Shown one piece after another: positions 24,333-61,092 of a stretch of 64,000 nt of DNA. The stretch comes from Catellatospora paridis (lineage in GTDB: Bacteria > Actinomycetota > Actinomycetes > Mycobacteriales > Micromonosporaceae), in assembly GCF_009720365.1 (NCBI RefSeq), contig NZ_ML769318.1, positions 210,022 to 274,021 of the forward strand. Direction: 5' to 3'. Made by a program: the position numbers and the translations under genes. The notes under the pieces are model-generated. The model had not been told where the DNA came from. It was given only the letters and a program-made list of their open reading frames with translations, and ran no database searches. Position 1 is the stretch's first letter. The number at the start of each line of letters is the position of its first letter.

Positions 24333-24397
24333 ATATACGTTGGCCTATCTGGATGAGTTCGATCGCCGAATTTTCACCCAGATAGGCCAACGTCTAT
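24333..24397. repeat. 65-bp palindromic element, copy R1
   Basis: 24-bp arms with outer sequence ATATACGTTGGCCTATCTGG on the left and the complement of ATAGACGTTGGCCTATCTGG on the right (one outer mismatch). The 17-bp centre (24357-24373) contains CGATCGCC. It lies between livM and the convergent NlpC/P60 gene. Three more copies are in the window, always 65 bp and always between convergent genes. Confidence 0.95.
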
Positions 24398-24457
24398 CGC
24401 GGGCGGGGCGATTGGGCGGGGCGCGGGGCGCGACGCGGGGCGAGTGGGCGGGGTGGG

Positions 24458-25447
24458 TCAGTGGGTGGAGAGGACTACGCGGCCGAAGCTGTTGATGGGA
24501 AGGGAGTCGATGGGGTCGACGCGGACGCGCTCGCCGTATTGGGGGGCGTGGACCATCTTGTCGCCGCCCAGGTAGATGCCCACGTGGTGGACGTCGCGGT
24601 AGAAGAAGATCAGGTCGCCGGGGACGAGCTGGCCGCGCGAGATGGTGCGGGCGCGCTGCTGCTGGCGGCCGGAGCTGTGCGGCAGTTGGATGCCGATCGT
24701 GCGGAAGGTGGCGGCGACCAGGCCCGAGCAGTCGAAGCCGCCCGGACCCTCCCCCGCCCACTTGTAGTCCTTGCCGATCTGGGCAAGCGCGTACTTCAGG
24801 ACCTTCTCGCCCGCGCCCGCCAGGCGGGGCACGGGTGGCTTCGCCCGGTCCTCGGTGCGGGCCAGCCGCCCGGTTGGCCCGTACGCCTTGACGCGCAGTT
24901 TCTTGAGGTCCGCGATCGCGGACTCGATCGTGGTGCGCTGGCGGCTGAGCTGCTTCTGCTGGTTCTTCTGCTGTTCGAGCAGCGCGTCCAGGGTGCGCTG
25001 GGCGGTGGCGTAGCGCTCCGAGGTGAGCGCCAGCTCCTCGATCTCGCGCTGCTGGTGCTGGGTGTACGCCTTCATGAGCAGCAGCCGGTCGACGATGTCG
25101 CGCGTGGTGCCCGCGTCGAGCAGCAGTGACAGGGACATGGACCGGCTGGACCGGTAGCCGGCGGCCGCGAGCCGCCCGACGGCGCCGCGGCGAGAAGTGA
25201 TCTTCTCCTTCAATGGTTCGATCTGGCGCTGCAGGACCCCGGTCTGCGCGGCCGTCGTCTTGAGGTCGTCGCGTAGCTCGTGGTACTTCTCCACGACCAC
25301 CTCAAGCTGGTCGGACTTGGCGCGGATCTGGCGGTCGAGCTCGGCGCTCGACGGTTCGGCGTGCGCGGCGCCCGAGATGAGCACGGTTGACGCGATCAAC
25401 GTCGCGCCTGCCCATAACACGAGGCGCCGCGTGGCGGAGTTCGACAC
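24458..25447 (-). CDS. Secreted NlpC/P60 peptidoglycan hydrolase with coiled-coil N-domain
   Basis: Cleaves peptide stems of peptidoglycan outside the cell. The 329-residue protein has a signal peptide ending GAAHAEP, a coiled coil (residues about 33-195), a short linker and a C-terminal NlpC/P60 domain. The catalytic cysteine is in FDCSGLV, the histidine in HHVGIYLG, and the third polar residue is probably the histidine of MVHAPQYG. The GTG start opens the signal peptide. The layout matches RipA/RipC-type hydrolases, which take part in cell division; the coiled coil probably controls activity. It is divergent from csoR. Confidence 0.92.
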   Translation of the reverse strand: MSNSATRRLVLWAGATLIASTVLISGAAHAEPSSAELDRQIRAKSDQLEVVVEKYHELRDDLKTTAAQTGVLQRQIEPLKEKITSRRGAVGRLAAAGYRSSRSMSLSLLLDAGTTRDIVDRLLLMKAYTQHQQREIEELALTSERYATAQRTLDALLEQQKNQQKQLSRQRTTIESAIADLKKLRVKAYGPTGRLARTEDRAKPPVPRLAGAGEKVLKYALAQIGKDYKWAGEGPGGFDCSGLVAATFRTIGIQLPHSSGRQQQRARTISRGQLVPGDLIFFYRDVHHVGIYLGGDKMVHAPQYGERVRVDPIDSLPINSFGRVVLSTH

Positions 25448-25533
25448 GTGGTCTATAACGACAAAAGTGCATGATCGGTGCAGGGTTGGTCAGACTGACG
25501 TGTCGAGCGACACCCGGCGTGTCTTGGCGGGGG

Positions 25534-25548
25534 TACCCCTAGGGGGTA
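25534..25548. promoter_or_regulatory. CsoR-type copper operator
   Basis: TACCCC-TA-GGGGGTA, a near-perfect palindrome of the type bound by CsoR in Bacillus and actinobacteria. It ends 10 bp before the csoR start codon, so apo-CsoR would block transcription of csoR-copZ-membrane protein-copA, with release by Cu(I). Confidence 0.85.
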
Positions 25549-25558
25549 TGGTGAGATC

Positions 25559-25861
25559 GTGGAGAGCAGCGAGAAGACCCCGGTCAGTTACGCCCAGGAC
25601 GACGACAAGCAGGCGCTGCTGGCGCGGCTGAAGCGGGTCGAGGGGCAGGTGCGCGGGCTGCAGCGGATGGTCGAGCAGGACACGTACTGTGTCGACGTCC
25701 TCACGCAGATCTCGGCCGCCACCCGGGCCCTCCAGGCCGTCGCGCTCGGGCTGCTGGAGGGTCATCTCAACCACTGCGTGGTGGACGCCGCCCGGCAGGG
25801 CGACCCCGCTGCCAAAGTCAAGGAAGCCACCGAGGCGATCGCTCGCCTGGTCCGGTCATAG
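25559..25861 (+). CDS. csoR: CsoR copper-sensing repressor
   Basis: All-helical copper sensor, 100 residues. The Cu(I)-binding Cys-His-Cys set is present: the cysteine of QDTYCVDVL and the histidine and cysteine of GHLNHC (H-x3-C). The helix LLARLKRVEGQVRGLQRM is the family DNA-binding face. The GTG start is used, with GGTGAG five bases upstream overlapping the operator end. The gene heads a copper-efflux operon and is presumably autoregulated. Confidence 0.95.
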   Translation: MESSEKTPVSYAQDDDKQALLARLKRVEGQVRGLQRMVEQDTYCVDVLTQISAATRALQAVALGLLEGHLNHCVVDAARQGDPAAKVKEATEAIARLVRS

Positions 25862-25878
25862 GTCGTAGGGAGACCGCG

Positions 25879-26097
25879 ATGTCCGTTCGGACGACATACC
25901 AGATCACCGGCATGACCTGCGGGCACTGCGCCAGCGCGGTGACCAGGGAGCTGACCGCGCTGCCCGGCGTGAAGGAGGTCGTGATCGACCTCGCCGCGGG
26001 CAACGCCGCGGTCGTCAGCGATGCCGTGCTGCCGCTCGACGAGGTGCGCAACGCCGTCGACGAGGCGGGTTACCAGCTGGCCGGCGTAGATGCCTGA
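25879..26097 (+). CDS. copZ: Copper chaperone CopZ (HMA domain)
   Basis: A 72-residue cytoplasmic Cu(I) carrier. It has the metal-binding motif GMTCGHC near the N-terminus and the beta-alpha-beta pattern of an HMA domain (ALPGVKEVVIDLAAGNAAVV). It lies 17 bp after csoR and overlaps the next gene by eight bases. It would hand copper to the CopA N-terminal domain. Confidence 0.95.
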   Translation: MSVRTTYQITGMTCGHCASAVTRELTALPGVKEVVIDLAAGNAAVVSDAVLPLDEVRNAVDEAGYQLAGVDA

Positions 26098-27061
26098 GCG
26101 GCAGTCGACGCAGGCCGAGGTGCCCGAGCAGGCCGGGGTGGTGCGCGCCCAGTCGGCGGCCCGCACCGGCGACGCGGCGGGCACCAAGCTCGGCATGTTC
26201 GTCGGCGGGCTGATCGTGGCGCTGGTCGTCGGTTTCACCCTCGGCAAGGTGCTCGGCCCGGCCGAGAGCCCGACGCAGGGGGCGACGACCGGGGCTCCGG
26301 CGGCCTCACCGGGCATGGGCGGCGTGCACGCGCACGCCCCGCAGGCCAGCGCGGGATCCGAGGTCGGCGGCCTGGCGGTGAGCAGCGGCGGCTACACGCT
26401 GGCCCCCGCGGCGACGGTGTTCGCCGCGCCCGGCCCGCAGCACCTCAAGTTCGTGGTCAACGGGGCGGACGGCAAGGCGGTGACGGACTTCGCGGTGGTG
26501 CACGACAAGCCGCTGCACCTGGTCGTCGTACGCCGGGACATGACCGGCTACCAGCACCTGCACCCGACCATGGCCGCCGACGGCACCTGGACCGTGCAGG
26601 CCGACCTGGCCACGCCGGGCCTCTGGCGGGCGTACGCCGACTTCACCGCGATCAGCGCGGGCGGCACGCAGACCGCGATCGCGCTCGGCACCGACCTCAC
26701 CGTGGCCGGTGACTACCGCCCGCAGCCGCTGCCCGCGGCGGCCCGCGAGGTCTCGGCCGACGGCCTGACCGCCGGCTACGAGGGCACCCCGGTCATCGGG
26801 GCCAGCCAGCCGATGCTGTTCACGGTCAAGCAGGGCGGCGCGACCGCCGCGCTGGAGCCGTACCTCGGCTCGTTCGGCCACCTGGTGGTGCTGCGCGAGC
26901 TGGACCTGGCCTACGTGCACGTGCACCCGGAGCCCGCGCTGGTCAACGGCGGAGTGAAGTTCTGGCTCGCCGCGCCGAGCCCGGGGCGTTACCGGATGTT
27001 CTTCGACTACTCGGTGGGCGGCAAGGTCCGCACGGCGCAGTACACGCTGGAAGTGAAGTAG
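26090..27061 (+). CDS. Membrane-anchored His/Met-containing protein in copper operon
   Basis: A 323-residue protein with a cytoplasmic N-tail, one transmembrane helix (residues about 37-58) and a large outer domain. Past the helix is a short segment with MGGVHAHAP. Two similar beta-rich halves follow, each with a histidine cluster: [24 protein letters not shown] and [20 protein letters not shown]. The repeated L-H-L-V-V ... H-x-H-P pattern suggests an internal duplication and a metal-binding site on the cell surface. Not a known copper chaperone family that I recognise. Operon position between copZ and copA implies a copper role. Confidence 0.8.
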
Positions 27062-27075
27062 GGGGCGAAGGGGTC

Positions 27076-29376
27076 ATGGACCTGCGGCAGGCGAACGTCA
27101 TCGAGCTGGACATCGGCGGGATGACCTGCGCCACCTGTGCCGGCCGGGTGGAGAAGAAGCTGAACCGGGTGGACGGCGTGACCGCCACCGTCAACTTCGC
27201 CACCGAGACCGCGCACGTGACCTACCCGGAGACGGTCTCCGTCGGCGACCTGATCAAGGTCGTCGAGGCCACCGGGTACACGGCCGCCGTGCCGCAGGTC
27301 GCTCTCCCCAGCGACGAGGCCGCCCGGCCCGAGCCCGACCCGCTCGGTCAGCGGCTGCTGATCAGTGGCCTGCTGACGCTGCCCGTGGTGCTGCTCAGCA
27401 TGATCCCGGCGCTGCAGTTCACCAACTGGCAGTGGCTGGCGTTCACGCTGGCCACGCCGGTCGCGGTGTGGGGCGCCTGGCCGTTCCACCGGGCCGCGGC
27501 GCTCAACGCGCGCCACGGCGCGGCCACCATGGACACGCTGATCAGCCTCGGCGTGCTGGTGTCGTACGGCTGGAGCGCCTGGGCACTGTTCTTCGGCGGC
27601 GCGGGCATGCCCGGCATGACCATGTCGCTGACCTGGCTGGCCGCTCGCGGCGACGACCCCGGCATGCACCTCTACCTCGAGGTAACCACCACCTTGACCA
27701 CGTTCCTGCTGGCCGGGCGGTGGTTCGAGCACCGGGCCAAGCGCCGCGCGGGCTCGGCCCTGCGGGCGCTGCTGGACCTGGGCGCGAAGGACGCGGTGCT
27801 GCTGCGAAACGGCGTCGAGCAGCGGGTTCCGGTGGACCGCCTCGCGGTCGGCGACCTGTTCGTGGTGCGCCCCGGCGAGAAGATCGCCACTGACGGCGTG
27901 ATCGTCGAGGGCAGCAGCGCGGTGGACACCGCCCTGCTCACCGGCGAGAGCATGCCGGTCGAGGTCGGCGCCGGCGACGCGGTGGTCGGCGCGACCGTGA
28001 ACGCCGGCGGCCGGCTGGTGGTGCGGGCGACCCGGGTCGGCGCGGACACCCAGCTCGCGCAGATGGCGAAGCTGGTCACCGAGGCGCAGTCGGGCAAGGC
28101 CCCCGTGCAGCGGCTGGCCGACCGGATCTCCGGCGTGTTCGTCCCGGTCGTGATCGCGCTGGCGGTGGGCACGTTCGCGTTCTGGACGGCGTACGACGGC
28201 GGGGTCACCTCGGCCGCGGTCACCGCGGCGGTGGCGGTGCTGATCGTGGCCTGCCCGTGTGCACTGGGCCTGGCCACGCCGACCGCGCTGCTGGTGGGCA
28301 CCGGCCGGGGCGCCCAGCTCGGCATCCTGATCAAGGGCCCGGAGGTGCTCGAATCCACCCGCCGGGTCGACACGATCGTGCTCGACAAGACGGGCACGGT
28401 CACCACCGGCGTGATGACGCTTGTCGGCACGCTCCCGGCCGCCGGGATCGAAGAGCAGGACCTGCTGCGGTACGCCGCCGCGGTGGAGCACGCGTCCGAA
28501 CACCCGATCGCGCGGGCCGTGGTGAACGGGGCGGCCGCGCGCGGGATCGCCCCCGGCGCGGTGCACGACTTCCAGTCCCTGCCCGGCCTGGGCGCACAGG
28601 GCGTCGTCGACGGCCGCAAGGTGCTGGTCGGCCGCGCGTCACTGCTCGCCGAGCAGGGCATGGCCCTCGACCTGGTGGACGTACCCGCCGCGAATGCCGT
28701 GGCGGCCGCGACGGGGGCGACTGCCGCGACCGGCGTGATCAGGCAAGCCGGCGGGAAGCAGGGGGGCGAGGTCCTGGCCGACGAGGCGCGCACCGCGGTG
28801 GCGGTGGCTCTCGACGGTGAGTTCGCGGGTTGGCTGCTGGTGGCGGACACGGTCAAGCCCGGGTCGGCCGCCGCGGTGGCCGAGTTCAAGCGGCTCGGGC
28901 TGCGGCCGGTGCTGCTGACCGGTGACGCCGAGGCCCCGGCGCGGGCGGTGGCGGCCGAGGTCGGCATCGGCGAGGTCATCGCCGGGGTGCTCCCCGCCGG
29001 CAAGGTCGACGCGGTGCGGCGGCTGCAGGAGCAGGGGCACACGGTGGCGATGGTCGGCGACGGGGTCAACGACGCGGCGGCGCTGGCCGCCGCCGACCTC
29101 GGCCTGGCGATGGGCACCGGCACCGACGCGGCGATCGAGGCCGCCGACCTGACGCTGGTCCGCGGGGAGCTGACCGTCGCCGCGGACGCGATCCGGCTGT
29201 CGCGGGCGACCCTGCGGACGATCAAGGGCAACCTGTTCTGGGCGTTCGCCTACAACGTGGCGGCGCTGCCGCTGGCCGCGGCGGGCCTGGTCACGCCGGT
29301 GCTGGCGGCTGCCGCGATGGCGCTGAGCAGCATCTTCGTGGTGACGAATTCGCTGCGCCTGTTCCGTTTCCGGTAG
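27076..29376 (+). CDS. copA: Copper-exporting P1B-type ATPase CopA
   Basis: ATP-driven Cu(I) export. The 766-residue protein has an N-terminal HMA domain (GMTCATC), eight predicted helices, the channel motif ACPCALG, the phosphorylated [11 protein letters not shown] motif SEHPIA, the actuator LLTGES and the hinge [13 protein letters not shown] short Ala/Gly-rich insertion ([21 protein letters not shown]) sits in the nucleotide-binding domain. Last gene of the csoR operon. CPC and HMA types support Cu(I) specificity. Confidence 0.95.
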
Positions 29377-29423
29377 TCCGTCACGGTGCGTCGCCGCCGA
29401 TCCGTAAACGAACCTGCCCTTTC

Positions 29424-29483
29424 ACGCAACAGACCGCCGTTCGAGGCCGCTAAGACGCAACAGACCAGCGTAAAGACGCAATC
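29424..29483. repeat. Three ACGCAA direct repeats before dimethylargininase gene
   Basis: ACGCAACAGACC occurs exactly twice (29424-29435 and 29455-29466), and a third partial copy ACGCAATCC begins at 29476. Start-to-start spacing is 31 and 21 bp, about three and two helical turns, so all lie on one DNA face. They end about 45 bp before the gene start and are a likely binding site for a multimeric regulator such as an Lrp/AsnC protein. Confidence 0.55.
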
Positions 29484-29528
29484 CTTCCCGCTACTGGGCG
29501 GCGGCTCGGGTGCGTAACCTTGCTGATC

Positions 29529-30374
29529 GTGACAGAGCGTGACTTGATCCCCACTGCCCGGCGGCCCCGTCCGCGTACCTACCTGATGTGCGCCCCGGAG
29601 CACTTCGTCGTGGAGTACGCCATCAACCCGTGGATGGACACCACCGCACCGGTGGACACCGCGCTGGCGGTCAAGCAGTGGGACGTGCTGCGCCAGACGA
29701 TGGTCGATCTCGGCCACACGGTGCACGTGCTCACCCCGCAGGCCGGTCTGCCGGACATGGTCTTCGCGGCCAACGGCGGGTTCGTGGTCGACGGCGTCGC
29801 GTACGGGGCGAAGTTCCGCTACCCGCAGCGCGCCGACGAGGCCACCGCGCACCGGGCCTTCTACGAGTCCCGCGACGAGTACGCCTTCGTCGCGCCGACC
29901 CAGATCAACGAGGGTGAGGGCGACTTCGCCTACCTGCCCGACGCCCACGGCGGCATCGCGCTCGCCGGGTACGGCTTCCGCACCGAGCCCGCCGCGCACG
30001 CCGAGGCCGCCGAGGCCCTGGGCCGCCCGGTGATCTCGCTGAAGCTGGTCGACCCGCGCTTCTACCACCTCGACGTCGCGCTGACCGTGCTCGACGACGA
30101 GAACATCGCCTACTACCCCGGCGCGTTCTCCGCGGCCTCGCAGAAGGTCATCGCGCAGCTGTTCCCGAACGCCGTGATCGCCGACGAGGCCGACGCGCTC
30201 GCGTTCGCGCTGAACCTGGTCAGCGACGGCCGCAACGTCGTGATCAACACGGAGTCGACCGCGTTCGCGGACAAGCTCACCGCGGCGGGCTACCACCCGG
30301 TCCTGGTGGACCTCGCCGAGCTGAAGAAGGGCGGCGGCAGCGTGAAGTGCTGCATCGCCGAACTGCGCGACTGA
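29529..30374 (+). CDS. Dimethylargininase (DDAH-type amidinohydrolase)
   Basis: Hydrolyses N-omega-methylarginines to citrulline and (di)methylamine; related enzymes act on arginine. The 281-residue protein has the amidinotransferase fold signatures CAPEHFVVEYAINPWM near the N-terminus, LPDMVFAANGG, the catalytic histidine in RFYHLDVALTVL and the nucleophile cysteine in GGGSVKCCIAEL near the C-terminus (the doublet leaves Cys274 or Cys275 as nucleophile). No strong ribosome-binding site precedes the GTG; the start follows family length. A strong terminator and a 65-bp repeat follow. Confidence 0.88.
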   Translation: MTERDLIPTARRPRPRTYLMCAPEHFVVEYAINPWMDTTAPVDTALAVKQWDVLRQTMVDLGHTVHVLTPQAGLPDMVFAANGGFVVDGVAYGAKFRYPQRADEATAHRAFYESRDEYAFVAPTQINEGEGDFAYLPDAHGGIALAGYGFRTEPAAHAEAAEALGRPVISLKLVDPRFYHLDVALTVLDDENIAYYPGAFSAASQKVIAQLFPNAVIADEADALAFALNLVSDGRNVVINTESTAFADKLTAAGYHPVLVDLAELKKGGGSVKCCIAELRD

Positions 30375-30394
30375 CCGCGTACCCACTGATCGAA

Positions 30395-30436
30395 CGCCGG
30401 CCGCCGGACCCGCAGGGGTCCCGCGGCCGGCGCTTT
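30395..30436 (+). terminator. Intrinsic terminator after dimethylargininase gene
   Basis: A hairpin of CGCCGGCCGC and GGACCC pairing with GGGTCC and GCGGCCGGCG (one mismatch, 4-nt loop GCAG), followed by CTTTA. It begins 21 bp after the stop, and repeat element R2 begins at once after it. Confidence 0.8.
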
Positions 30437-30437
30437 A

Positions 30438-30502
30438 ATAGACGTCGGCCTATCTGGATGACTTCTTGGCGATCGAACTCATCTAGATAGGCCAACGTCT
30501 AT
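30438..30502. repeat. 65-bp palindromic element, copy R2
   Basis: Left arm opens ATAGACGTCGGCCTATCTGG, right arm is the complement of ATAGACGTTGGCCTATCTAG; 22 of 24 arm bases pair. The 17-bp centre contains GGCGATCG, the reverse orientation of R1 and R4. It lies between the dimethylargininase terminator and the stop of the convergent lyase gene (30517). Confidence 0.95.
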
Positions 30503-30516
30503 GACAGCCGGGGCAG

Positions 30517-31470
30517 TCAGGCCGCGTGTGTGAACGACGTGGTGCGGGTCATGCCGGCGGCGCGGCCCTTGGCGGAGATGACCAGGGCCATCTTGCGGGA
30601 GGCCTCGTCGATCATCTCGTCGCCGAGCATGACCGCGCCGAGGCGGCCGCCCTGCTCGGAGGTGTAGTAGTCGTAGGCGTCGAGGATCAGCTCGGCGTGG
30701 TCGTAGTCGGACTGGGCCGGCGAGTAGACCTCGTTGGCGGCGTCGAGCTGGCCGGGGTGCAGCACCCACTTGCCGTCGAAGCCGAGCGCCGCCGAGCGCC
30801 GGGCCACCTCGGTGAACCCGTCCACATCCTTGATCTGCAGGTACGGCCCGTCGATGGCCTGCTTGTCGTGCATGCGCGCGGCCATCAGGATGCGCATCAG
30901 GATGTAGTGGTACGGGTCGCCCGGGTAGCCGGGGATGAGCGAGCCGACGACCAGAGACTTCATGTTGATCGAGGCCATGAAGTCGGCGGGGCCGAAGATG
31001 ATCGTCTCCACGCGGGGCGAGGCGGCCGCGATGGCGTCCACGTTGACCAGCCCGGCCGCGTTCTCGATCTGGGCCTCGATGCCGATCGCGCCGACCGGCA
31101 GGCCGAGCGACTTCTCCAGCTGGGTCAGCGTCAGGTCGAGCCACTCTACGTGCGACGCACTCTGCACCTTGGGCAGCATGATCGCGTCCAGGTTGGCGCC
31201 CGCGCCCTCGACGATCTCGATGACATCCGTGTACGTCCACGGCGTGGTCAGGTCGTTGACCCGTACCACGCGGGTCTTGCCGGCCCAGTCGCCCTCGTTG
31301 AGCGCGGCCACGATGTTTTTGCGGGCCTCAGGCTTGGCCAGCGGCGCCACCGCGTCCTCCAGGTCGAGGAAGACCTGGTCGGCGGGCAGGCCCTGGGCCT
31401 TGCCGAGCATCTTGACGCTGGAACCCGGCACGGCCAGACATGACCTGCGGGCACGCCCGAGAGCGGCCAT
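30517..31470 (-). CDS. HpcH/HpaI aldolase / CitE family lyase (malyl-CoA lyase-like)
   Basis: A 317-residue CoA-ester lyase of the CitE/Mcl type. Family motifs include RSCLAVPGSSVKML, FLDLEDAVAP (metal-site acidic residues), VRVND, IEAQIENAAGL and FGPADFMASI. Likely cleaves (3S)-malyl-CoA or beta-methylmalyl-CoA to glyoxylate plus acyl-CoA. The acyl-CoA dehydrogenase at 34212 and the MaoC protein at 39989 belong to types that accompany it in the actinobacterial ethylmalonyl-CoA pathway; this role is inferred. Confidence 0.87.
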   Translation of the reverse strand: MAALGRARRSCLAVPGSSVKMLGKAQGLPADQVFLDLEDAVAPLAKPEARKNIVAALNEGDWAGKTRVVRVNDLTTPWTYTDVIEIVEGAGANLDAIMLPKVQSASHVEWLDLTLTQLEKSLGLPVGAIGIEAQIENAAGLVNVDAIAAASPRVETIIFGPADFMASINMKSLVVGSLIPGYPGDPYHYILMRILMAARMHDKQAIDGPYLQIKDVDGFTEVARRSAALGFDGKWVLHPGQLDAANEVYSPAQSDYDHAELILDAYDYYTSEQGGRLGAVMLGDEMIDEASRKMALVISAKGRAAGMTRTTSFTHAA

Positions 31471-31542
31471 CGATACTCCTTAGGGAGCGTTCAGTAGTTG
31501 ACGCCACGGTAACCTCACTCCCGTCGAGAGGAGAACGGGACT

Positions 31543-32355
31543 GTGGAAGATCTCACGCGCCATGCGGTGATCACCGGTGCCACGTCCGGCATCGGGCAGG
31601 CGGCGGCTGTCGCGCTGGTGCGACAGGGCTGGCAGGTCACCCTGGTCGGGCGCGATCCGGGCCGGCTGGACGCGGCACTGGGCGCGGTCCGGGCCGAGGC
31701 GGCGGGCCCCGAGCCGGTCGGCCTGCTGGCCGACTTCGCACAGCTGTCACAGGTGCGCGACCTGGCCGCCAAGCTCTCCGGGCAGCGCGTCGACGTGCTG
31801 GCCAACAACGCGGGCCTGCTCGCGAACCGGCGCACCGCCACCGTGGACGGTCACGAGCTGACCATCCAGACCAACCACCTGGCCCCGTTCCTGCTGGCGC
31901 ACCTGATGCGCGACCAGCTGGCACCGGGCGCCCGCATCGTCAACACGGCGTCGATGGCGCACTCGTTCGGCACCCTCGATCCGGACAACCTGGACCGGCG
32001 CGGCGGCATCTACAGCGCCTGGCTGGCGTACGGCGGCTCGAAGCGGGCCAACATCCTGTTCGCGGCGGAGGCCGCCCGGCGCTGGCCGGACCTGCTCAGC
32101 TACTCCTTCCACCCGGGCGTGGTGCGCACCCGCTTCGGCACGCCCGCGGCCCGGCTGTTCTACAAGATCGGTCCCGGTATCGCCACCCCGGAGCAGGGTG
32201 CCGACCAGCTGGTCTGGCTGGCCACCGAGGACCCGGTCCGGCTGCAGAACGGCGCGTACTACGTGCTGCGCAAGCCGACCCGCCCGCACCCCAGCGCCCG
32301 CGACCCGCGGTTCGCCGCCCGCCTGTGGGACGCGAGCGCCACCGCCGTCCTCTGA
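31543..32355 (+). CDS. Short-chain dehydrogenase/reductase
   Basis: NAD(P)-dependent oxidoreductase of 270 residues, close to retinol-dehydrogenase-like SDRs. It has the cofactor motif TGATSGIGQAAA, NNAG (ANNAGLLAN), the catalytic serine in IVNTASMAHS and YGGSKRAN (Tyr-x3-Lys as YGGSK). GAGAGGAG lies upstream of the GTG. Substrate unknown. A long perfect hairpin follows. Confidence 0.87.
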   Translation: MEDLTRHAVITGATSGIGQAAAVALVRQGWQVTLVGRDPGRLDAALGAVRAEAAGPEPVGLLADFAQLSQVRDLAAKLSGQRVDVLANNAGLLANRRTATVDGHELTIQTNHLAPFLLAHLMRDQLAPGARIVNTASMAHSFGTLDPDNLDRRGGIYSAWLAYGGSKRANILFAAEAARRWPDLLSYSFHPGVVRTRFGTPAARLFYKIGPGIATPEQGADQLVWLATEDPVRLQNGAYYVLRKPTRPHPSARDPRFAARLWDASATAVL

Positions 32356-32378
32356 CGCGCCGCGCGGGACCGTACGAG

Positions 32379-32424
32379 TCGAGGCTCCGACCAGGCTGTC
32401 TGGGACAGCAGGTCGGAGCCTCGA
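32379..32424. terminator. Bidirectional hairpin between SDR and DUF4190 genes
   Basis: TCGAGGCTCCGACC pairs exactly with GGTCGGAGCCTCGA, and an inner GCTGTC/GACAGC stem sits in the loop. The hairpin lies between two convergent genes. Confidence 0.8.
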
Positions 32425-32469
32425 TCGGTGTTCGGCGGCCCACCCGGTGTCCGGTGCGCGCCGCCGTCG

Positions 32470-33033
32470 TCAGTACGAGCTGGCGCCGCTCACGCCCAGC
32501 ATGGCCAGGAACGGCAGGCCGAATGCGCAGAGGCAGCCGACCACGCCGAGGCCCGTGATGATCCAGCCGACGATGATCGCCGCCTTCGCCATCCCCTCGC
32601 CGTCCTCGCCGCTCTGGCGGATCTGCTTCATCGCCGAGTGACCGAGGATCGCCCCGATCGGGGCGGTGATCCAGGTCATCAGGCCGACCAGGGACAGGAT
32701 CAGCGCGACCAGGGCCATGCTGTTCTGCGGCCGGGGCGGCGGGTAGCCGCCGTAGGGCTGCTGTCCGTAAGGCTGCTGCCCGTACGGAGCCTGCCCGTAC
32801 GGCTGCTGCGGCGCGGCGTAGGGGTCCGCCGACTTGTAGGGGTCGGCGTAGGGCTGCCCCGACTGCGGTGCCACCGGCGGCACGCTCGCCGGCGGCGTCG
32901 CCGGAGAGCCGGGCACGGCCGGGGAGCCGTACGACGGCGGTGTCGCGTACGGGTTGGCCGCGGACGGCGGCGCGTAGGGATCCGGCTGACCCGAGTACGG
33001 GTCCTGGCCGGCTGGCGGAGGCGGGTACGTCAT
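32470..33033 (-). CDS. DUF4190 membrane protein (copy 1)
   Basis: A 187-residue protein: Pro/Tyr/Gln-rich N-terminal half (repeats of DPYAxPxx, QQPYGQQPYG), then two hydrophobic helices around a loop with GAILGHSAMKQIRQSGEDGEGMA typical of DUF4190. Start is the ATG with GGGAGAG upstream; a longer frame is unsupported. Third of three tandem paralogues. Function unknown; disordered cytoplasmic N-terminus and membrane anchor suggest a scaffold. Confidence 0.82.
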   Translation of the reverse strand: MTYPPPPAGQDPYSGQPDPYAPPSAANPYATPPSYGSPAVPGSPATPPASVPPVAPQSGQPYADPYKSADPYAAPQQPYGQAPYGQQPYGQQPYGGYPPPRPQNSMALVALILSLVGLMTWITAPIGAILGHSAMKQIRQSGEDGEGMAKAAIIVGWIITGLGVVGCLCAFGLPFLAMLGVSGASSY

Positions 33034-33049
33034 GACTTCTCTCCCAAGG

Positions 33050-33589
33050 TCAGTCCCAGTCGCTGCTGCTGCTGCCGTTCTGGATCTCGTCCCAGAAGGT
33101 CGGGTCGTTGGCAACGATGATCACGACGATCAAGATCCCAATGACGGTCAGCGCGACGGCGGACCATCCCGTGATGATGCCGGTGATGGCCATCCCACGG
33201 CCCTCCTGCTGACGCTCCCTGATCTGCTTCTGGCTGACGTGGCCGAGGATCGCGCCGATGAGCCCGGGCAGCGCGCCGATGCCGTAGCACCAGCACATCA
33301 GCACGCCCACGATGCCGAGCACCATCGACGCGATCGCCATCCCGTTCGTGCCGGGCGCGGCAGGACCCTGTGCGTAGGGGGTGAAGGGCACGCCGTACGC
33401 GCCCGTCGGCTGCGGGGAGTACGGCGCGCCGCTGGCGGCCGGCGCGGCGTACGGGTCCGCGCTGACCGGCGGCACCGCGTAGGGGTCCCCGCTGACCGGC
33501 TGCGGGGTGTACGGATTCGGGGTGGGCGGCGGAGCGTACGGATCAGGTTGCTGGTTGAACGGATCCGGGCTCGGCGGCGGGTAGGTCAT
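33050..33589 (-). CDS. DUF4190 membrane protein (copy 2)
   Basis: 179 residues, opening MTYPPPSPDPFNQQPDPYA, with a Pro/Tyr-rich first half and two helices around IGAILGHVSQKQIRERQQEGRGMA. The C-terminus is short and ends in a Ser/Asp-rich tail. Only 16 bp separate it from copy 1 downstream, consistent with one transcript. Confidence 0.85.
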   Translation of the reverse strand: MTYPPPSPDPFNQQPDPYAPPPTPNPYTPQPVSGDPYAVPPVSADPYAAPAASGAPYSPQPTGAYGVPFTPYAQGPAAPGTNGMAIASMVLGIVGVLMCWCYGIGALPGLIGAILGHVSQKQIRERQQEGRGMAITGIITGWSAVALTVIGILIVVIIVANDPTFWDEIQNGSSSSDWD

Positions 33590-33614
33590 GAAGAGCTCCT
33601 GACTCGACGTCTGG

Positions 33615-34055
33615 TCAGAACGAGCCGAAGCCGCCGTTGAGGTTCAGCGCCAGCCCGGCGATGCCGTTCAGGATGCCGAGACCCACGCCGACGTAACCGC
33701 AGATGATGCCCGTCAGCGCCTGCGAGCGGTTGGACTGCCCCTGCTGGGCGATCTGCTTCATGCTGATGTGGCCCATGATGGCGCCGGCCGCGCCGACGGC
33801 CACGCCGAGCAGCGCGCAGCACGCGGCGGGGATGGCGATGATGCCGACGATCATCGCGGCGAGGGCGAGGCCGTTGTTCTGCTTCAGCGGCGCGGTGCCC
33901 CACGGCTGGGCGTAGGGCTGCTGCAGGCCGGGCTGCTCGCCGTACGGCTGCTGCGCGGGGGGCTGCGGCTGGCCGTAGGGGTTCGGCTGCTGCGGCTGCG
34001 CGTAGGGGTCCGGCTGCTGGGCGTAGGGGTCCTGGCCGGGCGGGGTGTAGCTCAT
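33615..34055 (-). CDS. DUF4190 membrane protein (copy 3)
   Basis: 146 residues, the shortest of the three. The N-terminus MSYTPPGQDPYAQQPDPYA is followed by Gln/Pro repeats and two helices around GAIMGHISMKQIAQQGQSNRSQA. First gene of the three-gene run, divergent from the acyl-CoA dehydrogenase gene. The three copies have diverged in the linker but share the loop G-x-I-x-G-H-x-x-x-K-Q-I. Confidence 0.85.
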   Translation of the reverse strand: MSYTPPGQDPYAQQPDPYAQPQQPNPYGQPQPPAQQPYGEQPGLQQPYAQPWGTAPLKQNNGLALAAMIVGIIAIPAACCALLGVAVGAAGAIMGHISMKQIAQQGQSNRSQALTGIICGYVGVGLGILNGIAGLALNLNGGFGSF

Positions 34056-34140
34056 GGGGTGCCTTGTCTCTCGGATGTGGGTTCAGCGCACGTTAGCGAA
34101 CCCGGTGAACCTTTTCACAGTGACGGTGCTGTCAAGCGCC

Positions 34141-34169
34141 TTGGATGGGACGGAGGCCCGGCTCATACT
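34141..34169 (+). promoter_or_regulatory. Candidate promoter of the acyl-CoA dehydrogenase gene
   Basis: TTGGAT and CATACT are exactly 17 bp apart, with the start codon 43 bp downstream and an AGGAGG-like site in between. Match to the housekeeping consensus; not tested. Confidence 0.45.
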
Positions 34170-34211
34170 CAGCTCACCTGAAGGTTCGTTCAGTCCCCAG
34201 GAGGCTGACAT

Positions 34212-35411
34212 ATGGCTCGTCTCGCCCGTACTCCAGGCTTGTCCGATGTGCAGACCGCGATCCTCGAGACGGTGCGCGAGTTCGCGGACAAGGAGATCAT
34301 CCCGCGCGCGCAGCGGCTGGAGCACGCCGACGAGTACCCCGAGGAGATCCTCGCCGGGATGAAGGAGATGGGCCTGTTCGGCCTGACCATCGGCGAGGAG
34401 TACGGCGGACTCGGCGAGTCCCTGCTGACCTATGCCCTGGTCGTGGAGGAGCTGTCCCGCGGCTGGATGTCGGTGTCGGGCATCGTCAACACCCACTTCA
34501 TCGTGGCGTACCTGATCGGCCAGCACGGCTCCGAGGAGCAGAAGCAGCGGCTGCTGCCCCGGATGGCCACCGGCGAGGTGCGCGGCGCGTTCAGCATGTC
34601 CGAGCCCAACACCGGCTCCGACGTCGCCGCGATCACCTCGAAGGCGGTCCGCGACGGCGACTCCTACGTGCTGAACGGCCAGAAGATGTGGCTGACCAAC
34701 GGCGCGTACTCGTCCGTGGTGGCCACCCTGGTCAAGACCGACCAGGGCGCCGACAGCGTCTACGGCAACATGACCACGTTCCTGCTGGAGAAGGAGCCCG
34801 GATTCGGCGAGACCGCGCCCGGCCTGACCATCCCCGGCAAGATCGAGAAGATGGGCTACAAGGGCGTCGAGACCACCGAGATGGTGCTCAACGGCCACCG
34901 GGTGCCCGAGTCGGCGATCCTCGGCGGCGCCGACAAGGCCGGTCGCGGCTTCTACCAGATGATGGACGGCATCGAGGTGGGCCGGGTCAACGTGGCCGCC
35001 CGCGCCTGCGGCATCTCGATCCGCGCGTTCGAACTCGCCGTGGCGTACGCCCAGCAGCGGGCGACGTTCGGCAAGCCGATCGCGCAGCACCAGGCCATCG
35101 CCTTCAAGCTCGCCGAGATGGGCACCAAGATCGAGGCTTCGCACGCGCTGATGGTCAACGCGGCCCGGCTCAAGGACTCCGGCGAGCGCAACGACGTCGA
35201 GGCCGGTATGGCCAAGCTGCTGGCCAGCGAGTACTGCCACGAGATCGTCACCGAGTCGTTCCGCATCCACGGCGGCTACGGCTTCTCCAAGGAGTACGAG
35301 ATCGAGCGCCTCATGCGCGAGGCCCCGTTCCTGCTCATCGGCGAGGGCACCAGCGAGATCCAGAAAACGATCATCTCGCGCGGCCTCCTCAAGGAGTACC
35401 GCGCGCGCTGA
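34212..35411 (+). CDS. Acyl-CoA dehydrogenase (possible methylsuccinyl-CoA dehydrogenase)
   Basis: FAD enzyme of 399 residues. Family motifs: FSMSEPNTGSDVAAI (flavin/CoA contact), WLTNGAYSSVVATLV, GYKGVETTEMV, FGKPIAQHQAIAFKLAEM and the C-terminal RIHGGYGFSKEYEIERLMREA ... IGEGTSEIQK. The catalytic glutamate is likely in the REAP/IGEGTSEIQ region, as in related members. Sequence pattern and co-occurrence with CitE and MaoC genes resemble the acyl-CoA dehydrogenase in the Streptomyces ethylmalonyl-CoA gene cluster, so methylsuccinyl-CoA is a plausible substrate. Confidence 0.9.
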   Translation: MARLARTPGLSDVQTAILETVREFADKEIIPRAQRLEHADEYPEEILAGMKEMGLFGLTIGEEYGGLGESLLTYALVVEELSRGWMSVSGIVNTHFIVAYLIGQHGSEEQKQRLLPRMATGEVRGAFSMSEPNTGSDVAAITSKAVRDGDSYVLNGQKMWLTNGAYSSVVATLVKTDQGADSVYGNMTTFLLEKEPGFGETAPGLTIPGKIEKMGYKGVETTEMVLNGHRVPESAILGGADKAGRGFYQMMDGIEVGRVNVAARACGISIRAFELAVAYAQQRATFGKPIAQHQAIAFKLAEMGTKIEASHALMVNAARLKDSGERNDVEAGMAKLLASEYCHEIVTESFRIHGGYGFSKEYEIERLMREAPFLLIGEGTSEIQKTIISRGLLKEYRAR

Positions 35412-35417
35412 CCGGGT

Positions 35418-35454
35418 GCCGAGGGCGCGACCCGGGTCGGGTCGCGCCCTCGGC
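35418..35454. terminator. Bidirectional 16-bp hairpin
   Basis: GCCGAGGGCGCGACCC pairs exactly with GGGTCGCGCCCTCGGC around a 5-nt loop. It lies between the stops of the convergent acyl-CoA dehydrogenase and membrane-protein genes, three bases from the latter. Confidence 0.85.
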
Positions 35455-35457
35455 GTG

Positions 35458-36141
35458 TCAGCGCGAGCGCAGCTCCGGCGGGGCGTCGGGGAGGTAGGCG
35501 AGGTCGCCCCGGAGTTCGGGGTGGTCGAGGTAGTGCTGCAGGACGGCGGCGACCTCGGCGTCGCGCATCCGGTAGTCGGCGCCGCGCAGGCGCAGCGTGC
35601 CGTCAGTGGTGTCCAGGCGCACCCCGGCCCCGCTGTTCGGGCGCGCCGAGCGCACCTGCGACCAGGGCAGGTGCCGCCGGTGTACGCGGACCCCGCTCGC
35701 ATTGAGCACGATCTGCCGGGCGTTGCCGTGGGCCGGACGCACGACCACCCAGAGCAGCCCCAGCGCCAGCAGCGTCCACCCGATCGCGAGACCGGCCTCA
35801 CGGCCGTCCTCCAGCCGCGCCCAGCGGGCGATGATCGGCAGCTGCACGGCGAACCACAGCGCGGTGAGCACCCGGTCCGACACCGGGGTGAGCACGAGGC
35901 CGGGCTCGCCGTCGGCGGCGCCCTGGCGCCACCGCCCGTTCGGGTGGCGCATCAGGTGCAAGGAGCGCGCCACGGCGGCCCCGACCCCGAGGACGATCAG
36001 CCAGACGGTGTTCGCCTCGTCGCCGGACAGCGGATGGACGGGAGTGGTGCGTCCGTACCACCACGCGCCGGCGATGAGCAGGAGTCCGGCCGCGGTGAGC
36101 GCGGCGGCGCGGGCGCGCGGGGTCGTCGGCACGGCGATCAC
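35458..36141 (-). CDS. Membrane protein with PH-like C-terminal domain
   Basis: About 227 residues with four hydrophobic helices (roughly residues 10-26, 45-60, 86-105 and 117-136), then a soluble domain whose strands (ARQIVLNASGVRVHRRHLPWSQV, GVRLDTTDGTLRLRGADY) look like a bacterial PH domain. Function unknown. Start is not certain: TTG 36147, GTG 36141 or GTG 36132 are all in frame with no clear ribosome-binding site. Divergent from the next membrane protein gene. Confidence 0.68.
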   Translation of the reverse strand: MIAVPTTPRARAAALTAAGLLLIAGAWWYGRTTPVHPLSGDEANTVWLIVLGVGAAVARSLHLMRHPNGRWRQGAADGEPGLVLTPVSDRVLTALWFAVQLPIIARWARLEDGREAGLAIGWTLLALGLLWVVVRPAHGNARQIVLNASGVRVHRRHLPWSQVRSARPNSGAGVRLDTTDGTLRLRGADYRMRDAEVAAVLQHYLDHPELRGDLAYLPDAPPELRSR

Positions 36142-36220
36142 TCGCAAAGGCTACGAGACCACCTCACCTCCGCCAACGGCGCGGCCGGTGTCGATTTCGG
36201 GGCAGGCTATTCTGGCCGAC

Positions 36221-36628
36221 GTGCGACGACTGCTCACCCCCGGCTGGCTGGCCGGTCATGCGCTGGCGCTGCTGGCCGTCGTCACATGTCTCGCCCTCGG
36301 CTGGTGGCAGGCGGGCCGCGCCGCCGAGGGAAACACTTTGAGCTGGGCGTACACCTTCGAGTGGCCGATCTTCGCGATCTTCGTGGTGGTGATCTGGGTC
36401 CGGGAGATCCGGCTCACCCTCCGCAAGGGCCGTGCCGAGTCCACGGCCCCGACCGTTGACCCGGTGGACCGGCCGCGGCCGGTCATCACGCGGCGGGTGA
36501 ATCAGCCCACTGCCGCGGTCGACGACTCCGGCGATCCGCAGCTGGCCGAGTACAACCGTTACCTGGCCTGGCTGAACGAGAACCCCGAGGCACGACCCAG
36601 CGACTATCCCGCTAAGGAGTATCGATGA
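36221..36628 (+). CDS. Small membrane protein with two helices
   Basis: A 135-residue protein: basic start, helix 1 (GHALALLAVVTCLALGWWQAGRA), a short loop, helix 2 (PIFAIFVVVIWVREI), then a polar C-tail (DPQLAEYNRYLAWLNENPEARPSDYP). No function assigned; the tail pattern occurs in actinobacterial proteins encoded before DUF3817 genes. It overlaps the next gene by four bases (ATGA). The upstream part of the longer frame is not supported. Confidence 0.75.
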   Translation: MRRLLTPGWLAGHALALLAVVTCLALGWWQAGRAAEGNTLSWAYTFEWPIFAIFVVVIWVREIRLTLRKGRAESTAPTVDPVDRPRPVITRRVNQPTAAVDDSGDPQLAEYNRYLAWLNENPEARPSDYPAKEYR

Positions 36629-36948
36629 ACGGCGCACTGACCCGGTACCGCATCATCGCCTGGATCGTGGGCGTGCTGCTACTGGCGCTGACCCTCGTCG
36701 CCATGCCCATGAAGTACTTCGCCGACAACAACGTCGGCGTGCTGATCATCGCCCCGGTGCACGGCTGGCTGTTCGTGGTCTACCTGGCCGCCGTCGGCGA
36801 CCTGGCCCGCCGGGTGCAGTGGCCGGTCACCCGCATCCTGCTGGTGGCGCTGGCCGGCACCATCCCGTTCCTGTCGTTCGTGATGGAGCGCCGCGTGGTC
36901 GGCTGGATCCAGGGCACCGACCGGCAGCCCTCGTTCACAGAAGCGTGA
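36625..36948 (+). CDS. DUF3817 membrane protein
   Basis: A 107-residue protein with three helices and the family pattern YRIIAWIVGVLLLALTL, MPMKYF and IAPVHGWLFVVYLAAVGDLARR. Translationally coupled to the upstream small membrane protein. Its last 14 bp overlap the convergent radical SAM gene. Function of the family is unknown. Confidence 0.88.
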   Translation: MNGALTRYRIIAWIVGVLLLALTLVAMPMKYFADNNVGVLIIAPVHGWLFVVYLAAVGDLARRVQWPVTRILLVALAGTIPFLSFVMERRVVGWIQGTDRQPSFTEA

Positions 36949-38986: not shown

Positions 38987-39013
38987 CCCGCTATTGAAAC
39001 ATATGTTCGAACG

Positions 39014-39370
39014 CTAGGCAGCTGTCGCGTCCGCCTTCACCTGCTCCATGTCGAGCTCGCGCACCTTCTGGAGCAGGTCCAGGAAGGCGGCCTCGGGCAG
39101 GGCGCCCGGCTGCGAGTACACGATCACGCCGTCGCGGATGGCCATGATCGTGGGGATCGACTGGATGTTGAAGTGCATGGCGAGTTCCTGCTGCGCCTCA
39201 GTGTCGACCTTGCCGAAGGTGACGTCCGGGTTCGCCTCGGCGGCCCGCTCGTAGACCGGCGCGAAACGGACACACGGACCACACCAGCTCGCCCAGAAGT
39301 CGACGAACGTGATGCCGTCGCCGCTCGTCTTCTCGCCGAAGTTTTCGGTGGTGAACTCCACGGTGCCCAT
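39014..39370 (-). CDS. Thioredoxin
   Basis: Dithiol-disulfide carrier, 118 residues, with active site WCGPC in FVDFWASWCGPCVRFAP and the cis-proline in IQSIPTIMAI. The ATG opening MGTVEF has GAGGAG seven bases upstream; the longer frame starts inside that site. It lies alone between convergent/divergent neighbours, next to a DCC-type protein that also has a redox cysteine pair. Confidence 0.93.
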   Translation of the reverse strand: MGTVEFTTENFGEKTSGDGITFVDFWASWCGPCVRFAPVYERAAEANPDVTFGKVDTEAQQELAMHFNIQSIPTIMAIRDGVIVYSQPGALPEAAFLDLLQKVRELDMEQVKADATAA

Positions 39371-39520
39371 CGTCGTGCTCCTCATTTCTTCGAGTGACCA
39401 GCGTCCATGTAAACCACTGCGCCACTTAGCTCATTCCCGTCCTGTCCACGGTACAGACGGTGACGTGACGCACAGGGCGGCACGCGATACAACGCGTGCG
39501 AGGCGGAGGACCATGAAGAC

Positions 39521-39898
39521 GTGTCCGCGACCTTCGTCTACGACGGCGACTGCGCCTTCTGCACCCGGTGCGTCGAGTTCATCCGCCGCCGGGTGCCGAC
39601 CGCCGCCGTGATCGTGCCGTGGCACAGCGCCGACCTGCCCGCCCTGGGGCTGACCCGGGAGCAGTGCCTGACCGCGGTGCAGTACGTGGAGCCCGGCCGC
39701 CCCGCGCTCGCCGGCCCGGAAGCCATTGCCGCACTCCTGCGGGCGAGCCGCTCACCCTGGCGCCCGCTGGGCGCCGCGCTCGACCTGCCCGCGGTGGGAC
39801 TCTTCTCGTGGCCGGTGTACCGCTGGATCGCCCGTCACCGCCACCGGCTCCCCGGCGGCACCGCCGCCTGCGCCGTGCCCCGCGCGCCCGGCTTGTAA
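39521..39898 (+). CDS. DCC-family (DUF393) thiol-disulfide oxidoreductase-like protein
   Basis: 125 residues, beginning with the family hallmark FVYDGDCAFCTRCVEF (D-x-x-C-C pair). A second part includes AGPEAIAALLR and SWPVYRWIARHRHRLPGG. Role unknown; the cysteine pair suggests redox activity. GTG start with GGAGGA upstream. The last base of its TAA stop is the first base of repeat R3. Confidence 0.87.
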   Translation: MSATFVYDGDCAFCTRCVEFIRRRVPTAAVIVPWHSADLPALGLTREQCLTAVQYVEPGRPALAGPEAIAALLRASRSPWRPLGAALDLPAVGLFSWPVYRWIARHRHRLPGGTAACAVPRAPGL

Positions 39899-39962: not shown

Positions 39963-39988
39963 GCAAAGCGGGGTGCGCGGGCCGCCGG

Positions 39989-55190: not shown

Positions 55191-55191
55191 C

Positions 55192-57154: not shown

Positions 57155-57189
57155 ACCGGACTTCACCTTCCTACGGTGTGGCGTTACGC

Positions 57190-58212: not shown

Positions 58213-58289
58213 GGGGACGTGGCGCAGCCCGGTAGCGCACCTCGTTCGCATCGAGGGGGTCAGGGGTTCGAATCCCCTCGTCTCCACCA
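58213..58289 (+). tRNA. tRNA-Ala (anticodon CGC)
   Basis: Acceptor GGGGACG pairs with CGTCTCC, including the G3:U70 pair that identifies alanine tRNA. Anticodon arm CCTCG-TTCGCAT-CGAGG gives anticodon CGC (codon GCG). T-arm AGGGG-TTCGAAT-CCCCT is standard, and the 3' CCA is encoded. A terminator follows. Confidence 0.97.
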
Positions 58290-58294
58290 GAGTC

Positions 58295-60005: not shown

Positions 60006-60089
60006 GCCAAGGATCGTAGGCTGAAAAACTCGGAAACCGTCGCCTGAGTTCACGGTGATCGGCAAAAACGTATCGAAGGCAGGGGACAG

Positions 60090-60920
60090 ATGGCGGAAGT
60101 CACCGGGCTGGTGCTGTGCGGCGCGCCGCTGGGCAACCCCGCGGACGCCTCGGCGCGGCTGCGCCAGGTGCTCACCGAGGTGGACCTGGTCGCCGCCGAG
60201 GACACCCGCCGGCTGCTCCGGCTGGCCCGCGATCTTGACATCGTCATCCCTGGCAAGATCGTCTCGTACTTCGAGGGCAACGAGGAGCGGCGTACCCCCG
60301 AGCTGGTCGAGACGATGCGCGACGGGCAATCGGTGGCGCTGGTGACCGACGGCGGCATGCCCAGCGTCAGCGACCCCGGCTACCGGCTCGTCGCCGCGGC
60401 GCTGGCGGCCGGGCTGCCCGTCACCTGCGCCCCCGGCCCCAGCGCCGTCACCACGGCGCTCGCGCTGTCCGGGCTGCCCTGCGACCGGTTCTGCTTCGAG
60501 GGCTTCCTGCCGCGCAAGGGCGGCGAGCGCCGCGCCCGGCTGGCCGCGCTCGCGGCCGAGGAGCGCACCCTGGTCTTCTTCGAGTCCACCCACCGGGTCA
60601 AGGACACCCTCGCCGACCTCGTGGCGGCCTTCGGCGGCGACCGGGCCGCCGCCCTGTGCCGCGAGCTGACCAAGACCTACGAGGAGGTACGCCGCGCGCC
60701 GCTGGCCGAGCTGGCCGAGCTGGAGGAACTCCGTGGCGAGATCACCCTCGTGGTGGCCGGTGCGGTGCCGAACATGGAACGCCCCACCGACGAGCAGCTG
60801 ATCGCCGAGGTCGCCGCGCACGTGGCCGCGGGCTCGTCCCGCCGGGACGCCGCCGCCGCCGTGGCCGCCGCCCACCAGCTCCCGAAGCGTGACGTCTACG
60901 ACCTCTCCACCCGCCGCTGA
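60090..60920 (+). CDS. rsmI: 16S rRNA 2'-O-ribose C1402 methyltransferase RsmI
   Basis: Methylates the ribose of C1402 in 16S rRNA with S-adenosylmethionine. 276 residues with GAPLGNPADAS, AAEDTRRLLRL, VALVTDGGMPSVSDPGYRLV, APGPSAVTTALALSGLP and FLPRKGGERRA, a full RsmI set, although the usual P-x-G-N-L motif reads GAPLGNP. AGGGGACAG precedes the ATG. Divergent from pmt; convergent with the repeat-rich membrane protein gene across R4. Confidence 0.95.
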   Translation: MAEVTGLVLCGAPLGNPADASARLRQVLTEVDLVAAEDTRRLLRLARDLDIVIPGKIVSYFEGNEERRTPELVETMRDGQSVALVTDGGMPSVSDPGYRLVAAALAAGLPVTCAPGPSAVTTALALSGLPCDRFCFEGFLPRKGGERRARLAALAAEERTLVFFESTHRVKDTLADLVAAFGGDRAAALCRELTKTYEEVRRAPLAELAELEELRGEITLVVAGAVPNMERPTDEQLIAEVAAHVAAGSSRRDAAAAVAAAHQLPKRDVYDLSTRR

Positions 60921-61027
60921 CGCGCCGCCGTTTCGCTCGGCGGTGCTGACCGTGATCGGCTCGCGGGCATCCCTCACCCCCACACTCACCCCACCCCGCC
61001 CCACCCCACCCCACCCCGTCCCCATGC

Positions 61028-61092
61028 ATAGACGTTGGCCTATCTGGATGAGTTCGATCGTCGAAAACTCATCCAGATAGGCCAACGTCTAT
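61028..61092. repeat. 65-bp palindromic element, copy R4
   Basis: Arms ATAGACGTTGGCCTATCTGG (left) and its exact complement (right); all 24 arm bases pair, making it the most perfect copy. The 17-bp centre contains GTTCGATCG, same orientation as R1. It lies between the convergent rsmI and repeat-rich membrane protein genes, beside a C-rich tract (about 60978-61023). Confidence 0.96.

Follow-up and report, generated by a model that had tools for sequence, protein, structure and literature searches.

When palindromes recur at gene ends, the usual explanation is either a mobile element or a terminator. Here we describe family A, a family of 65-bp palindromes with four members, R1–R4, in a 64,000-nt stretch of the Catellatospora paridis genome (contig NZ_ML769318.1 of assembly GCF_009720365.1, positions 210,022 to 274,021 of the forward strand). 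This whole stretch is called the window, and C. paridis the host. In the passages available from one report, repetitive extragenic palindromes (REPs) have stems of 5–13 bp (GTAG type) or 8–9 bp (CGTC type) with an unpaired tag at one end, and the GTAG ones are transposase-associated (PMC3733652). As far as those passages go, family A resembles both types in consisting of dispersed short palindromes with paired stems that lie in convergent or same-direction gaps (63/63 host copies read) and are likely transcribed. It differs in its stem of about 25 bp, its symmetric paired ends (ATAG...CTAT) and its constant length of 65 bp; in addition, GTAG REPs have an associated RAYT transposase, whereas no RAYT link was found for family A.

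Stem-loops lacking a U-tract are reported at transcript 3′ ends of Streptomyces clavuligerus, and the I-shaped or "HS-U-lack" ends of GC-rich actinobacteria are defined, in the part of the source consulted, by shape together with 3′-end data, with bidirectional ends occurring (PMC8269248). Family A, too, consists of stable hairpins that closely follow a stop codon and lack a U-tract, but it forms a single sequence family marked by conserved blocks and by dialects, known here from sequence alone. DNA uptake sequences, according to excerpts of two papers, are about 9–11 nt long, generally present in at least 1000 copies, found in terminators and spelled in species dialects (PMC1852404, PMC3630211). 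The likeness is a repeat paired into 3′-end hairpins with one spelling per species; the difference is that family A has 1–131 copies per genome and 24-nt arms and is seen only paired. Surveys of stem-loop sequence families covered 40 genomes, mostly of medical interest, and stem-loops were generally enriched after stop codons (PMC2267715, PMC1590033). These are also repeated intergenic stem-loops, yet the passages at hand do not describe a constant length combined with dialects that change between orthologous sites. No account of family A was among the top-ranked literature matches, which were mostly open-access.

The placement of family A is ordinary, like that of REPs and terminators; its unusual trait is that shared sites are re-spelled from one species to another. 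Such sites can be traced between species: the location is common to them, the pairing persists, and one part of the stem changes in concert throughout the genome. Whether such a repeat is a selfish copy or a read signal becomes testable at dozens of natural replicates, and the copies are candidate natural bidirectional terminators for GC-rich actinomycetes.

Placement of family A after stop codons

The initial annotation of the window had listed four palindromes of exactly 65 bp, and all were confirmed: R1 at 24333–24397 (arms 24333–24356 and 24374–24397 around a 17-nt centre at 24357–24373), R2 at 30438–30502, R3 at 39898–39962 and R4 at 61028–61092. The family is real: with at most three mismatches allowed, the 18-nt arm is matched at eight places in the window, which form the pairs of R1–R4, against a mean of 0 in 100 dinucleotide shuffles. 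Arm matches and RNA folding identify R2, and gene calls as well R3; R4 has a perfect 26-bp stem with the loop motif GATC at element positions 29–32 (+). The RNA folds of the four on either strand range from −36.6 to −50.4 kcal/mol (z −8.1 to −13.4), with R1 at −36.6 (+) and −40.0 (−) kcal/mol and z about −9. Arms of 24 bp are present in all four, but they are not always exact: R1 starts ATATACG, R2 has GTCGG against CCAAC, and R3 has AGGTGA against TCATCT.

The host genome (8.97 Mb, 35 contigs) gave 71 forward and 70 reverse arm matches with at most three mismatches, which amounts to about 70 copies. We read 63 of about 71 host copies in context, selected among the best matches listed by an arm with at most one mismatch, and called genes with our own codon-usage caller. 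This caller placed R1–R4 between convergent genes, but the claim that the elements lie only there fails genome-wide: 38 of the 63 copies are convergent, 25 tandem and none divergent, at a median of 37 bp from a stop codon. The association had been regarded as chance should the copies be spread without orientation bias. The bias is present. In 400 kb of the Catellatospora genome G008, gaps of at least 25 bp are 19% convergent, 25% divergent and 56% tandem; relative to these fractions the 63 copies have a convergent excess (P=6.5e-13) and a divergent lack (P=1.9e-8). Relative to 80 kb of host sequence, the respective values are P=1.5e-16 and P=2.5e-6.

Host copy-to-stop-codon distances are at most 100 bp in 97 of 101 cases, and 23 of the 25 host tandem copies are closer to the upstream stop than to the next start. 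Over the species, 221 copies comprise 130 convergent, 81 tandem and 4 divergent ones, with 6 in gaps of unclassified type. Because tandem copies are common and divergent ones near absent, the placement rule is a position after a stop codon rather than between convergent genes.

Structure of the stem and loop

In 50 aligned copies with 25 stem pairs, 95.7% of cells are paired. Changes on both sides of a pair occupy 135 cells, compared with 43 after shuffling, and none of 500 shuffles reached 135; when the pairing partner was slid by 1–3 columns, two-sided changes numbered at most 14. Pairing is maintained by two-sided changes. The stem, extended inward from 24 pairs, has a median length of 25 (175 copies) or 26 (42 copies). 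The element is exactly 65 bp long in 163/166 copies, though 56–81 bp was allowed, and copies of other length (3/166 and 4/221) were excluded from position-wise counts.

Within the host arms, positions 10–17 differ at only 2/992, position 8 at 24/124 and position 18 at 21/124. Invariance of the core is in part a product of search design, as the patterns used for relatives demanded TGGCCTAT or TGGCCTATCT and the element finder allowed one mismatch per core block. Conservation also goes further than the 65 bp taken as the conserved unit, for the flanks tend to carry CCCCGYTTTNC before and GNAAARCGGGG after the element. In tandem gaps (58 copies), this flank motif exceeds the 5% random-sequence threshold on the upstream side in 88% and on the downstream side in 69% (upstream against downstream, p=0.006).

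GATC occupies centre positions 5–8 in one orientation in 123/175 copies of a near group, comprising the host, C. vulcania, C. methionotrophica, C. sichuanensis and C. coxensis, with kinship judged by RsmI identity alone rather than by a tree. On average 2.37 of 4 pairs form in a short inner stem whose 3′ side bears a 2-nt bulge; exchanging halves among copies lowers this mean to 2.10 (sd 0.05). Where the gap is tandem, the GATC side matches the direction of transcription in 34/48 copies (p=0.0055), and giving each shared site a single vote leaves 21 for, 7 against and 4 tied (p=0.013).

These features bear on the proposal, which we consider very unlikely indeed, that family A is a site at which a chromosome-organising or domain-boundary protein binds double-stranded DNA. 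The constant 65-bp geometry, the near-invariant half-site block and the 3′-end placement would suit such a site. On the other hand, all 125 arms with at most three mismatches in 497 kb of host sequence, in stretches mostly chosen for carrying a copy, lie inside paired elements, and no unpaired arm was seen there. The arms also change together far beyond chance, which two half-sites do not need, and the loop motif tends to follow transcription. A purely symmetric DNA site is disfavoured on the same three counts.

A proposed role at mRNA 3′ ends

Position, kept pairing, constant length, orientation bias and a scarcity of other hairpins in short gaps are all properties read directly from the sequences. 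Family A is probably a U-less RNA hairpin at mRNA 3′ ends that serves both strands in convergent gaps. Such a bidirectional transcription-end element is the best supported of the three roles first suggested, the others being a mobile palindrome and the chromosome-organising site. The transcript of the upstream gene would fold a stem of about 25 bp containing the near-invariant basal block TGGCCTAT/ATAGGCCA, four variable base pairs that make up the dialect block (positions 19–22) and a conserved GA/TC step, topped by an apical part of fixed 17-nt length. In the host and the five nearest species sampled, the apical part would usually present GATC at a fixed place and often the inner stem with its 2-nt 3′-side bulge. 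We infer that the hairpin either ends transcription without a U-tract or blocks 3′ exonuclease trimming after factor-dependent termination. Because the element is palindromic, it could act on both transcripts of a convergent gap, and it would stand in for the ordinary terminator hairpin.

Short gaps that hold a copy seldom hold a second hairpin, and sister species often have a different hairpin in the same gap, both in line with such a substitution. Among convergent gaps with 30–80 bp besides the element, another hairpin occurs in 1/33, compared with 12/23 A-free gaps (p=2.4e-5; the hairpin-depletion counts here and below are derived from fractions). In tandem gaps the figures are 1/26 against 31/129 (p=0.017) and 5/30 against 47/122 (p=0.031).

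The elements could also be ordinary intrinsic terminators that are alike only through recent duplication, which appears very unlikely. Location and hairpin agree with this explanation, as does the fact that short gaps holding a copy seldom contain a further hairpin, but a U-tract is absent, and intrinsic termination needs neither a near-invariant stem block nor a constant length nor a fixed loop motif. The earlier view that the pattern does not fit an ordinary terminator was correct, in that family A is unlike the textbook U-tract type.

Several observations weigh against a 3′-end hairpin serving in this way. Family A departs from the U-tract criterion of the canonical intrinsic terminator, since only 2/62 tandem copies have at least 4 T among the 8 bases that come next, and termination alone leaves the invariant block, the fixed length and the dialects unexplained. 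Longer convergent gaps show no significant depletion of other hairpins (10/45 against 10/25, p=0.17; 4/8 against 6/13, p=1), and the A-free gaps come mostly from loci picked for a nearby copy. At R2 a second strong hairpin adjoins the element, and 4/215 classified copies were called divergent. In the host genome alone, the orientation of GATC is 16 to 7 (p=0.09). Unpaired cells read in the transcript sense were G-U rather than A-C by 42 to 24 in 62 tandem copies (p=0.036); the larger set of 79 copies gave 46 to 32 (p=0.14), and this test is not relied on. Lastly, no hairpin is present at the R3 locus in G003 and G008, two other Catellatospora genomes.

Family A in other genomes

The strict pattern is present in 9/11 Catellatospora genomes and in 0/140 genomes of other genera. 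A looser pattern, the core TGGCCTAT-N31..35-ATAGGCCA, was counted 62 times in the host, 108 in C. methionotrophica (G001), 67 in C. sichuanensis (G004), 56 in C. tritici (G005), 107 in C. coxensis (G006), 55 in C. vulcania (G007), 118 in G009, 131 in Catellatospora sp. KI3 (G010) and 16 in G003, with one match each in G002 and G008 and none in 10 other-genus genomes. RsmI identity to the window places G001, G003, G004, G006 and G007 near (94–97%) and G002, G005, G008, G009 and G010 farther away (83–85%). Among the 98 stretches listed from a collection scan, three (L100, L107 and L130) come from outside Catellatospora; without the outer arms, these resemble chance matches. Absence from other genera is thus judged on the 0/140 genomes with the strict pattern and the 0/10 with the looser one.

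In the gaps orthologous to those of R1–R4, family A is retained in some species and unrelated palindromes occur in others, belonging to family B (CTCTTAAAGACT arms), C (TTGCCTGGCA), D (GATCTTGCG), E (AGAAGGTGCCCTTC) and others. The R4 orthologue in C. vulcania has the same dialect and an identical centre; those in C. coxensis and C. methionotrophica have the other dialect and centres alike at 12/17, and G003 has an apparent remnant end of the element. At the R3 locus, G003 and G008 have neither element nor gap, and their convergent genes overlap (38 and 4 bp in our gene calls). A hairpin in the gap is therefore common but not obligatory. The R3 locus looks as if the element had opened the gap, or as if its loss had closed it. 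The association with convergent gaps was also to be taken as chance if homologous loci in related strains all carried unrelated hairpins. Such hairpins do occur at some of them, but family A also recurs at the same sites, which points to interchange rather than chance.

A further explanation is a small mobile palindrome, similar to a REP or a miniature inverted-repeat transposable element (MITE), spread by some enzyme, so that the 3′ placement would reflect tolerated insertions and the dialects newer copies replacing older ones. We regard this as unlikely, though a good deal of the distribution is compatible with it. The family is dispersed and patchy, at 16 to 131 copies in nine genomes and 1 in two, sister species hold different hairpin families in the same gap, and the overlapping convergent genes of the two R3-less genomes are expected of insertion or of loss. 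REPs, in the passages cited, likewise lie mainly in convergent and same-direction gaps (PMC3733652). However, 49 groups of sites are shared between species, and no Y1 transposase was found in G005, G007, G009 and G010, which carry 55–131 copies. The flanks at R3 have diverged, and no target duplication of the MITE kind is recognisable in them.

A partner transposase of the RAYT type had been suggested as a check, and no link emerged. PF01797 matches occur in 6/11 genomes, with the four genomes just named among those without one. Four of the nine matched loci were read with about 1.5 kb on each side, and none has paired arms, only three isolated one-mismatch 9-mers. With four of the nine loci read, a RAYT/Y1 partner is unsupported. 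A phage or plasmid origin was likewise set aside, as the strict pattern was unmatched in viral contigs and R4 with its flanks was unmatched in plasmid and phage records.

Species dialects at shared sites

Stem positions 19–22 are variable yet still paired, and each species has a preferred spelling. The GGAT group accounts for 56/62 copies in the host and 10/16 in C. vulcania, the CATC group for 54/57 in C. coxensis and 15/15 in C. sichuanensis, and the AGAG group for 20/33 in KI3 (10 mixed) and 5/6 in C. tritici; C. methionotrophica is mixed, with 12 GGAT and 11 CATC among 25. The C. coxensis sample consists of 40 stretches plus those from a collection scan, out of 107 copies in the genome.

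Flanking proteins identified 120 orthologous pairs, of which those with 65-bp copies form the 49 site groups. Between the host and C. coxensis there are 26 pairs, representing 26 distinct copies on each side. Their dialect block is 15.4% identical, compared with 13.6% for random pairs (p=0.42), whereas the centre is 56.6% identical compared with 46.8% (p=4e-4). Replacement of whole copies by a mobile element does not predict such related loops under differing dialects. Centre likeness points in the same direction for host–methionotrophica (15 pairs, p=0.018), host–vulcania (12 pairs, p=0.023), host–sichuanensis (8 pairs, p=0.12) and coxensis–methionotrophica (9 pairs, p=0.083). Because the 7 host–KI3 pairs lack a centre signal (0.336 against 0.352), the vertical signal of the loop is seen within the near group only. 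Among pairs of differing dialect, 14/72 share at least 12 of 17 centre bases. In one example, a C. sichuanensis copy (L073) and a host copy (L177) match at 16/17 centre positions and have the inner arms CATCGA and AGATGA, respectively. Spellings that differ by single steps are present, namely GGAT, GGTT, GATC and CATC, and AGAT and AGAG.

Independent drift is not expected to converge dozens of sites on one spelling, and therefore either a trans-acting reader or homogenisation of copies must be invoked. The dialects suggest one or the other, and the data favour neither; any such cause, like the role of the hairpin, is inferred. One possibility, which we put forward tentatively and with some doubt, is that family A comprises genus-wide 3′-end hairpins read by a putative trans-acting factor, with the basal block as a common handle and four stem pairs as a species code. 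Drift in the specificity of the reader would then lead dozens of unmoved sites to change both arms together to a new spelling, each with its own loop preserved.

The other possibility is homogenisation without selection: short tracts would be converted, or templates switched, between dispersed copies, and the second arm would be corrected on the hairpin template. Such an account is tenable, if short of probable, and it rivals only the cause of the dialects and not the 3′-end function. Palindromes can trigger replication stalling. The species-wide uniformity at shared sites fits such copying, and the conserved TGGCCTAT and GA blocks that flank the dialect block could serve as microhomology. Yet the single-step intermediates leave room for stepwise change, both dialects persist in C. 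methionotrophica and are intermingled along its largest contig, and the converted tracts would have to end at the stem and spare the loop, as L073 and L177 illustrate.

Flanking features and other hairpin families

The left flank of R1 carries the motif CACCCCGCCTTGC (24320–24332), which sequence and motif statistics assign to the extended element, and on the same grounds the right flank of R3 carries GCAAAGCGGGGTG (39963–39975). The first base of R3 (39898) is the final base of the stop codon of the upstream gene in our gene call, and R3 with its flanks (39875–39985) folds at −85.2 kcal/mol. R2 had been described as following a complete intrinsic terminator. A separate, strong GC-rich hairpin does precede it immediately (30395–30432, + strand; −39.2 kcal/mol, z −5.6), but its tail CUUUAAUA has only three consecutive U, and a scan of 24200–40100 that required 5 T in 8 missed it.

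Family B has the same plan as family A, CTCTTAAAGACT-(inner arm)-AGTCTTTAAGAG, with a 52–53-bp core and a variable but mostly paired centre. It was seen in L200–L201, L198–L199 and L210, orthologues of window positions 24333–30502, and was counted 24 times in G001, 18 in G007, 12 in G003, 4 in G006, 2 in the host and once in G004, against 0/50 other-genus genomes. The R2 orthologues of G004 and G005 (L202–L203 and L206–L208) have a convergent gap full of TTTGCTCTGCACCCA repeats beside a GC-rich hairpin.

In 400 kb of G008, 33 of 77 long gap hairpins belong to repeat families, and in 400 kb of G013, from another genus, 11 of 49 do; therefore, repeated gene-end hairpins may be common in this bacterial family, perhaps with an own set in each lineage. 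The G008 families (L262–L281) include GATCGC..CGTGTCA with 9 members, AGAAGGTGCCCTTC with 8, TTGCCTGGCA with 7 and GATCTTGCGCGAACTG with 4, mostly in tandem and convergent gaps. G013 (L282–L301) has the family TGATCAAGAGGTTTGCGTCA with 7 members.

At the Rfam gathering score, the window matched no family except for one tRNA gene at 58213–58286 on the + strand (RF00005). Two further convergent gaps of the window contain long perfect GC-rich hairpins, with a 24-bp stem without a loop at 16148–16195 and a 17-bp stem at 35418–35454, both likely ordinary gene-end hairpins.

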